Source of the DNA: Bacteroidota bacterium
GTDB taxonomy: Bacteria > Bacteroidota > Bacteroidia > Flavobacteriales_D > Crocinitomicaceae
Assembly: GCA_947378245.1 (NCBI GenBank)
Contig: CANCJF010000006.1
Span: forward strand, 1-45,120
Reading direction: 5' to 3'
DNA length: 45,120 bases
The notes beneath the pieces were generated by a model. The model saw nothing but the letters and a program-made list of their open reading frames with translations, did not search any database and had not been told where the DNA came from. Every line of letters starts with the position of its first letter. The stretch's first letter is position 1. Below are positions 9,667 through 37,355 of the stretch, one piece after another. Position numbers and translations under genes: made by a program.

Positions 9667-10623
9667 TTGGAAAATAAAATATTTTCTGTCACACCTTCAA
9701 CTTTTGAAGAAACTGCAATTGATGTATTTCATTATCAATACACTAGAAATCCAATTTATAAACAATTTGTAGATTATCTAGGTAAAAATAAACCTCAAAA
9801 ACTAACTGAAATTCCTTTTTTACCAATTTCATTTTTTAAAACGCACGAAGTAAGATGTTTTGAAAAAGAAATTGAGATTCTTTTCAAAAGCAGTGGAACT
9901 GGAGGGAATAGAAGTCAGCACTATGTTGAATCTTTACAAATGTATAAACAATCGTTTGAACCAACCTATAGAAATCAGTTAGGAAATCCTGAAGATCAAG
10001 TAATAATAGCACTATTACCAAATTACATCGAACAAGGTGAATCAAGCTTGGTGTATATGGTCAATCGATTGATTCAATTAAGTAATAATCAACTGTCAGG
10101 ATTTTATTTAAACGAGATAGACAAAATCAAAGAAACCTATAAGCTAGCTGTATATCAAGGTAAAAAAGTAATAATCTTTGGTGTAAGTTATGCACTACTT
10201 GATTTAGCAGCATTAGAACCCGATTTGTCCGAAGCAATAATTATCGAAACAGGCGGAATGAAGGGTCGTCGAAAAGAATTAACGAAAGAAGAACTTCATG
10301 CAGAACTAAAAAACGGATTCAATGTTGATTTTATTGCATCAGAATACGGTATGAGTGAATTATTATCTCAAGCTTATAGTGATAAAAATGGACTCTTCAC
10401 CACTCCTCCGTGGATGAAAATCCTTATTCGAGATGTGAATGACGCATTGAGTTATGAAGAAAAAGGAAAATCTGGTGGAATTAATGTGATTGATTTAGCT
10501 AACCTATACTCTTGTTCTTTTATTGCCACACAAGACTTGGGGAAAATAATAGGAAATTCATTTCAATTATTAGGTAGATTTGATAATGCGGACATACGTG
10601 GGTGTAATTTATTAATTGAATGA
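9667..10623 (+). CDS. LuxE-like acyl-protein synthetase / AMP-forming acyltransferase family protein
   Basis: 318 aa; FKSSGTGGNRSQHYV adenylate-forming-like motif, ETGGMKGRRKELTKEE, SEYGMSELLSQAY; apparent TTG start immediately after the hflX stop. Confidence 0.75.
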   Translation: MENKIFSVTPSTFEETAIDVFHYQYTRNPIYKQFVDYLGKNKPQKLTEIPFLPISFFKTHEVRCFEKEIEILFKSSGTGGNRSQHYVESLQMYKQSFEPTYRNQLGNPEDQVIIALLPNYIEQGESSLVYMVNRLIQLSNNQLSGFYLNEIDKIKETYKLAVYQGKKVIIFGVSYALLDLAALEPDLSEAIIIETGGMKGRRKELTKEELHAELKNGFNVDFIASEYGMSELLSQAYSDKNGLFTTPPWMKILIRDVNDALSYEEKGKSGGINVIDLANLYSCSFIATQDLGKIIGNSFQLLGRFDNADIRGCNLLIE

Positions 10624-10685
10624 GACATGAGACATTAGACCTCAGACATGAGACCTCAGACATGAGACTATAGACTATAGACTAA
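10623..10685 (+). repeat. Tandem heptad array, 9 in-register copies of AGACNNN
   Basis: AGACATG AGACATT AGACCTC AGACATG AGACCTC AGACATG AGACTAT AGACTAT AGACTAA with no indels. Confidence 0.97.
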
Positions 10686-10716
10686 AATTAGAATCAATTA
10701 TTTAAGATCAAAATCT

Positions 10717-10744
10717 AATGTCTAGTGTCTGTAGTCTAGAGTCT
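10717..10744 (-). repeat. Inverted heptad array, 4 in-register copies of NNNGTCT (AGACNNN on the - strand)
   Basis: AATGTCT AGTGTCT GTAGTCT AGAGTCT, preceded by degenerate AAAATCT. Confidence 0.95.
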
Positions 10745-10782
10745 AATAAAAACTTTTAACTTTATACTTTCGACTAAAAAAA

Positions 10783-11190
10783 ATGAATTTCAATAAAATG
10801 AATTTAACTCTTAATGAAATATTAATTCTCCTCGCTATTGGAGTATTAGCAGGTATGATTAGTGGATTCATCGGTGTCGGTGGAGGAATAGTGATTGTTC
10901 CCGCATTAGTTTATTTCATGGGATTGACGCAACATCAAGCTCAAGGCACAAGCCTTTTACTAATGCTTCCTCCTATTGGAATATTAGCAGTCATGAATTA
11001 TCAAAAAGCTGGAAATATAAATTGGTGGTATGGCGGAATTATTGCTCTTGCATTCATTATAGGTGGATATTTTGGATCGAAAATCTCCCTTAAATTACAC
11101 CCAGGTATCGTAAAACTAGTATTTGGAATTATCATGATTTATGTTTCTATTAAAATGATTCTTTCAGGTTATAATTCAATCAAGCAGTGA
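10783..11190 (+). CDS. TauE/SafE family sulfite exporter / permease
   Basis: 135 aa; LAGMISGFIGVGGGIVIVPALVYFMGLTQHQAQGTSLLLMLPP. Confidence 0.92.
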   Translation: MNFNKMNLTLNEILILLAIGVLAGMISGFIGVGGGIVIVPALVYFMGLTQHQAQGTSLLLMLPPIGILAVMNYQKAGNINWWYGGIIALAFIIGGYFGSKISLKLHPGIVKLVFGIIMIYVSIKMILSGYNSIKQ

Positions 11191-29160: not shown

Positions 29161-29255
29161 GAGTGACGGCCCTTCGAGAACCTCAGGGACCGAGTGATGA
29201 TCCTTTGAGAACCTCAGGGACCGAGTGACCCTTCGACAGGCTCAGGATAAACTTA
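29161..29255. repeat. Imperfect tandem repeat, about 31-bp unit, 3 copies
   Basis: gagtgacggcccttcgagaacctcagggacc / gagtgatgatcctttgagaacctcagggacc / gagtga-cccttcgacaggctcaggataaactta. Confidence 0.92.
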
Positions 29256-30707: not shown

Positions 30708-30722
30708 TTTTATATGAACGGA

Positions 30723-30806
30723 GGATAATTTATCCAGCGTAGCTGATACAGGATAACATATCCAGCTTAGCTGACGCAGGATAACACATCCAGCGTAGCT
30801 AAGTTT
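30723..30806. repeat. 28-bp tandem repeat, 3 copies
   Basis: ggataatttatccagcgtagctgataca / ggataacatatccagcttagctgacgca / ggataacacatccagcgtagctaagttt. Confidence 0.95.
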
Positions 30807-35049: not shown

Positions 35050-35505
35050 GAACCATTTAATGCATATTATATTAATTGGGGAAAATATGAAACATTGAGA
35101 AATTGAGAAGTTAAGGACGATTTAACGGGGATGATTGAAGGTGATTAAGAGACCTGCGGTCTGATTGAGGCAACAGTTGATGATTAGAGGTTTTAAAGGT
35201 TTTGACACAGAATTCACAAAGAATTTTCACAAATTACACAAAGTGAAAGTGGATTGTTTTTTAAGAGTAATATTGTTTTTCGAACCATTTAATGCATATT
35301 ATATTAATTGGGGGAATATGAAACATTGAGAAATTGAGAAGTTAAGGACGATTTAACGGGGATGATTGAAGGTGATTAAGAGACCTGCGGTCAGATTGAG
35401 GCAAAAGTTGATAAATATTAGGTTTTGAAGGTTTTGACACAGAGTTCACAAAGAATTTACAAAAAGGACACAAAGAGAGAGTATGATACAAAGTTTGAAA
35501 GTTTT
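35050..35505. repeat. 232-bp direct tandem duplication
   Basis: gaaccatttaatgcatattatattaattgggg... begins at 35050 and again at 35282; about the first 115 nt nearly identical, then progressive divergence. Confidence 0.95.
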
Positions 35506-35607: not shown

Positions 35608-35689
35608 GCGGATATGGTGAAATTGGTAGACATGCCAGACTTAGGATCTGGTGCCGCGAGGCGTGTGGGTTCGAGTCCCTCTATCCGCA
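35608..35689 (+). tRNA. tRNA-Leu (anticodon UAG)
   Basis: GCGGATA/TATCCGC acceptor stem, CCAGA-CTTAGGA-TCTGG anticodon arm (TAG), class II variable arm, GGTTCGAGTCC T-arm; CCA not encoded. Confidence 0.97.
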
Positions 35690-35703
35690 CTAAAAATTAA
35701 ATT

Positions 35704-37211: not shown

Positions 37212-37245
37212 ATGAATATGTGTGGGAGACCCGACGTATCACGCA

Positions 37246-37355
37246 TTTGGGCGCGACTCATCACGTATTTGGGCGCGACGCATCACGCATTTGGGCGCGA
37301 CGCATCACGCATTTGGGCGCGACGCATAACACATTTGGGCGCGACTCATCACGCC
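37246..37355. repeat. 22-bp tandem array, 5 full units plus a degenerate leading unit
   Basis: Unit tttgggcgcgacgcatcacgca at 37246, 37268, 37290, 37312, 37334. Confidence 0.97.

Follow-up and report, generated by a model that had tools for sequence, protein, structure and literature searches.

Between a LuxE-like acyl-protein synthetase gene and a co-directional TauE/SafE gene of a Bacteroidota bacterium (GCA_947378245.1, contig CANCJF010000006.1, positions 1-45,120 of the forward strand; this whole stretch of 45,120 nt is called the window), a row of 7-nt units with four fixed and three free letters faces an inverted row of the same word. The question raised by this locus is what such an array is, whether it recurs elsewhere, and what it might do between two genes.

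Anatomy and copies of the array

The gap and its flanking genes contain the following features.

9667..10623, + strand: LuxE-like acyl-protein synthetase gene (ORF; Pfam PF04443, E 2.6e-09)
10621-10623, + strand: stop codon TGA of the LuxE-like gene (ORF)
10623..10685, + strand: left arm, nine AGACNNN units (read directly)
10686..10716, + strand: A/T-rich spacer (loop), 31 nt (near-identical in G001, alignable in G008 and G010)
10717..10744, - strand: right arm of four NNNGTCT units, which spell AGACNNN on that strand (read directly)
10748..10775, + strand: four NNNNACT units in the array's 7-nt register (decayed or second-word heptads)
10783..11190, + strand: TauE/SafE gene, downstream and co-directional (ORF; PF01925, E 3.8e-23)

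Nine in-phase AGACNNN units, a 31-nt spacer and four inverted units, as described in an earlier note on this DNA, were all recovered by direct reading. That note had the array begin on the final base of the LuxE-like stop codon, as it indeed does, the A of TGA being the first A of the left arm. Left-arm units are AGACATG, AGACATT, AGACCTC, AGACATG, AGACCTC, AGACATG, AGACTAT, AGACTAT and AGACTAA, and right-arm units are AATGTCT, AGTGTCT, GTAGTCT and AGAGTCT. The spacer (AATTAGAATCAATTATTTAAGATCAAAATCT) is closed by ATCT, which looks like a decayed fifth inverted unit. Beyond the GTCT arm the 7-nt register is continued by AAAAACT, TTTAACT, TTATACT and TTCGACT, which reach nearly to the TauE/SafE start codon. 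Four-unit AGACNNN matches (≤1 mismatch) numbered 8 in the window vs 0 in 100 dinucleotide shuffles, so that none is expected by chance.

Arrays were surveyed in genome stretches; the IVP-rich genera G015 and G016 were covered by genome-wide pattern counts instead. In the window's own genome (G000; 2.98 Mb, 240 contigs, 92% complete), AGACNNN arrays of four units were found on both strands at some nine sites, and those of three units at several others, and a reversed control pattern gave 0 four-unit and 1 three-unit array. Four-unit arrays were carried by 10 of 12 congeners and by 20 of the 59 genomes searched. When any tetrad recurring in phase four times was accepted (1245 kb, three genomes), 17 clusters were detected at period 7 vs 2 at period 8, and block-shuffled sequence yielded 0 at period 7. 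AGAC/GTCT or TTAGA words were present in 10 of the 17 clusters, AGAC/GTCT being the commonest word. A second heptad word, ACTTTNN, was arrayed in G000 at C12:24621-24672, C17:12553-12656 and C181:4213-4278.

The copy downstream of LuxE was kept in three sister species with changed unit number and triplets. In G001 (LuxE orthologue 91% identical in protein) it has eight or nine units with different triplets and a near-identical spacer, in G008 three left and four right units, and in G010 five decayed left and four right units. The corresponding site of G007 carries an inverted pair with a different word, and no array was detected downstream of the LuxE orthologue in G009 and more distant species. 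The genome-wide search proposed in the earlier note thus returned many loci with conserved phasing and variable copy number, and local slippage unique to the window locus was ruled out by the dispersed arrays and the sister-species copies.

Two AGAC hairpins with similar loops occur in succession within an arsR - hypothetical - arsC-like gene row, and further hairpins occupy the mrdA-rodA, gltX-folB and panB-rluA-like gaps (gene names by reading the sequences). AGAC arrays were found in divergent and convergent gaps too. Spacers of different loci are unlike one another, and the AGAC copies compared had no common spacer or palindromic core. A 24-unit AGACNNN stretch (L225 1527-1691, G005:C26) was located within a predicted 294-aa ORF, not in a gap.

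Constraint, polarity and predicted folding

Tetrads and triplets were compared between orthologues in eight orthologous groups. AGAC/GTCT tetrads were 96.8% identical (763/788), triplets 78.3% (463/591) and the remaining gap positions 83.9% (1558/1858), the size of the tetrad effect being uncertain because repeats may align one unit off, which flatters tetrads. The window element is real and repeated, and it is apparently under constraint. It is plausible by eye that the triplets could provide stop codons in all frames.

AGAC was directed away from the nearest gene boundary, start or stop, in 61 of 66 arrays; in mRNA sense, therefore, AGAC follows stops and GTCT precedes starts. The median distance from array to boundary was 9.5 nt, and 14 arrays overlapped the boundary. 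Five arrays broke this rule: three of them form arms next to IVP genes, and another precedes a tmRNA gene, which was absent from the ORF list used for this count. At L013 (G000:C67, 8271-8385), the gene directly downstream of the AGAC/GTCT arms was recognized by eye and is presumably that of tmRNA.

RNA folding was predicted for 36 co-directional AGAC gaps (60-240 nt) and 208 control gaps. Strong folds (z < -2) were modestly enriched (20/36 AGAC gaps vs 75/208 control gaps, Fisher p 0.04), and about half of the AGAC gaps were without a strong hairpin. The predicted fold of the window gap, at -36.6 kcal/mol, scored z -2.93 relative to dinucleotide shuffles (1 of 200 was as good), with some pairing among the nine left units themselves. 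In the MFE structures of the 20 strong-fold gaps, 85% of tetrad bases were paired vs 44% of triplet bases. The term "register-flexible hairpin", taken from the earlier note, is therefore a good description of the predicted RNA of two-armed copies. Positions 5-7, which the same note had proposed to check for covariation between arms, showed no systematic pairing between them. Several conserved arrays are single-armed (L001 group, L218, L206) and, taken with the gaps lacking a hairpin, indicate that pairing alone is not the whole story. Bridging from stop to start was not claimed as a distinctive property because 26 of 70 strong-fold control gaps do likewise. An alignment of six ars-type hairpins had too few sequences for covariation, and its place was taken by the joint change of words in both arms at the thiolase locus (described below).

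No terminator-like site, that is, no G+C-rich stem with a T run, was detected at 10500-10900, in line with the earlier view that the array is unlike a simple terminator. An intrinsic terminator and a sigma-70 promoter were rejected, their signals being no more frequent than chance. Rfam 15 gave no family match above gathering score, the sole sub-threshold match being to a microRNA (23.2 bits vs 90). The earlier interpretation as a whole stood as to the non-terminator character, the many phased loci and the tetrad hairpin, and found no support as to triplet pairing between arms; it did not include the IVP/S23 association, the constant polarity of the arms or the arrays of the same architecture with other words.

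Association with IVP/S23 genes

G000:C50 carries, between AGAC arms and just ahead of a thiolase gene, a gene of PF05635 (23S_rRNA_IVP), the IVP/S23 family that is best known from insertions in rRNA. Most other PF05635 genes of the genus and family are likewise bracketed by inverted arrays, whose 7-8-nt units spell different words. At 35 family loci, the complementarity between the two flanks of a gene was 22.2 for own upstream-downstream pairs vs 13.2 for mismatched pairs, the observed sum being 777 and the best of 20000 permutations 587. Phylum-wide, the values were 17.4 for own and 11.6 for mismatched pairs (30 loci). Flanks of 234 control ORFs scored 14.4, and two IVP genes were among their top six. 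Autocorrelation of IVP flanks at lag 7 was 0.076 upstream and 0.121 downstream, with an echo at lag 14, little at lag 8 and nothing at other lags; 168 control gaps were near 0 and had no lag-7 peak. At the locus before thiolase (14 loci, many genera), own arms outscored arms taken from other genera in every one of 50000 permutations, and the word changes between genera in both arms together. PF05635 genes across Bacteroidota are thus flanked by inverted heptad arrays whose words differ from locus to locus, a new observation: the literature yielded no description of such arms, whether they surround IVP genes or lie between protein genes.

The majority of the Bacteroidota genomes tested (90 of 118) contained PF05635. 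Four-unit heptad clusters numbered 0 in 679 kb from four family genomes without a PF05635 match vs 17 in 1245 kb from three IVP-bearing genomes (Poisson 9e-5), a co-occurrence drawn from few genomes of related species. Whole-genome pattern counts with three heptad words were positive in 46 of 54 genomes that bear IVP vs 1 of 6 that lack it (p 0.001, uncorrected for kinship and genome size), and the sole IVP-less genome with heptads is a 79% complete assembly. Within three genera (g14, g18, g22), IVP-less species were without the arrays present in their IVP-bearing congeners.

To our knowledge, IVP/S23 proteins have no known function, and bacterial heptad repeats are likewise unexplained. The architecture common to the window array and the IVP/S23 flanks connects these two features of bacterial genomes, and since the two travel together each gains a concrete, testable partner. 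Inverted, 7-nt-phased and concertedly changing arms suggest that hairpins resembling intervening sequences (IVSs) are common in mRNAs, beyond 23S rRNA.

Possible roles of the element

Intercistronic palindromes such as REP/BIME and ERIC, and processing or stabilization stem-loops, are hairpins in co-directional gaps that can set mRNA processing and stability. REP/BIME palindromes are marked by a core conserved in every copy and by a RAYT transposase. The heptad arrays share the placement in co-directional gaps and appear to differ in having no fixed palindromic core or common spacer; they are built of 7-nt units and linked to IVP. Closer likenesses are found in 23S rRNA IVSs, stem-loops that may or may not contain an IVP/S23p gene and that RNase III excises (PMC4990558). 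The IVS of Coxiella burnetii has complementary ends forming a near-perfect 28-bp stem, an S23p ORF and, immediately ahead of the start codon of S23p, a varying number of tandem GACAGAT heptamers, cleavage taking place at the first of these (PMC4990558). Complementary ends that form a stem, by which membership is judged, are present in the window array, and arrays of its kind likewise occur with or without an intact ORF for the IVP/S23 four-helix bundle and carry variable-number tandem heptamers near the end. The window array differs in that its arms consist of repeated units in place of a near-perfect 28-bp stem, and its 31-nt spacer contains no IVP/S23p ORF, whereas the arms at G000:C50 enclose one. 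It is placed outside the rRNA IVS family because its location between LuxE-like and TauE genes, not in a 23S rRNA helix, fails the definition. TAACTGA heptamers of Beggiatoaceae, Cyanobacteria and some Bacteroidetes are also tandem, intergenic and near start or sometimes stop codons, and a post-transcriptional role has been proposed for them (PMC4679880). They have seven fixed letters and are mostly direct repeats; the window array contained no direct repeats of TAACTGA, its word being AGACNNN, four fixed letters and three free, with an inverted arm.

Because the same architecture encloses IVP/S23 genes across Bacteroidota, the window element is tentatively taken to be an IVS-like RNA hairpin that has no ORF and separates two cistrons, working like an IVS in mRNA (probability about 0.4). 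It would be one ORF-less member of an intergenic class ended by inverted arrays of 7-nt units. If transcribed between the cistrons, the element would fold into a long interrupted stem in which AGAC:GTCT tetrads make up the helices and triplets either open into small internal loops or pair optionally, and the arms could pair in several registers because every unit carries the same tetrad. At the RNA level, such a stem may be a target for RNase III-type cleavage, for an IVP protein acting in cis or trans, or for both, and could thereby separate the two flanking genes or set their relative stability and translation. Unit number would shift by slippage, and tetrads would be retained through pairing and/or recognition. 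Arrays in divergent and convergent gaps are left unexplained by an intercistronic RNA role.

A neutral origin, in which slippage favors 7-nt units and template switching across the quasi-palindrome keeps the arms complementary without any function, is doubtful. It would account for the varying unit number among sister species and for locus-specific words that change in concert, and heptamers are reported to be the commonest repeats of 5-11 nt in many bacteria and to be tied to polymerase slippage (PMC4679880). Slippage and drift should, however, affect tetrads and triplets equally, and tetrads are conserved far better than either triplets or the remaining gap positions (subject to the alignment offset noted above); neither fixed polarity nor the IVP association is predicted. 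The arrays were also considered as tandem sites at gene boundaries that a sequence-specific protein would bind, as DNA or as RNA, with the hairpin incidental. Recurrence of the AGAC tetrad at many unrelated loci, single arms included, and its direction away from boundaries whatever the direction of transcription would fit, but other loci of these genomes show this architecture with different words, so that one protein would need many specificities, and within a locus both arms have a common word; this reading is improbable. Slightly less probable again is that the arms are terminal inverted repeats of a small MITE-like mobile element with IVP as occasional cargo. Both ends do have fixed inward polarity, forms with and without an ORF exist, one gene row holds two copies with similar loops, and rRNA IVSs have been described as selfish elements that may once have been transposons (PMC4990558). 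Against this, spacers differ between loci, and locus-specific words together with the retention of the thiolase element across genera indicate vertical descent.

Beyond the IVS-like hairpin proposed for the window array, inverted heptad arrays and IVP/S23 four-helix-bundle proteins might conceivably be halves of one Bacteroidota-wide system, IVP acting in trans on mRNA heptad hairpins or helping to create them, an extension that is speculative and unlikely on present evidence. If it were true, each genome would keep a few words (e.g., AGACNNN), genes with the same word would share a post-transcriptional fate, and rRNA IVSs would be the special case noticed first.

Other repeats were recorded in the window. 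A convergent gap holds 5.6 copies of a 22-bp repeat (CGACGCATCACGCATTTGGGCG) at 37232-37354, adjoined by an inverted CTGAGCTGTGCTCAG palindrome. REP-like 31-bp repeats (CCCTTCGAGAACCTCAGGGACCGAG) occupy a gap at 29161-29236, with a similar motif in G010 (L171, about 13300). A 28-bp repeat (AGGATAACATATCCAGCGTAGCTGACAC; 2.8 copies) directly follows a stop codon at 30722-30800, and a 231-bp tandem duplication lies at 35050-35482, with the end of a gene on one side and a tRNA-Leu gene (35608-35690) on the other.
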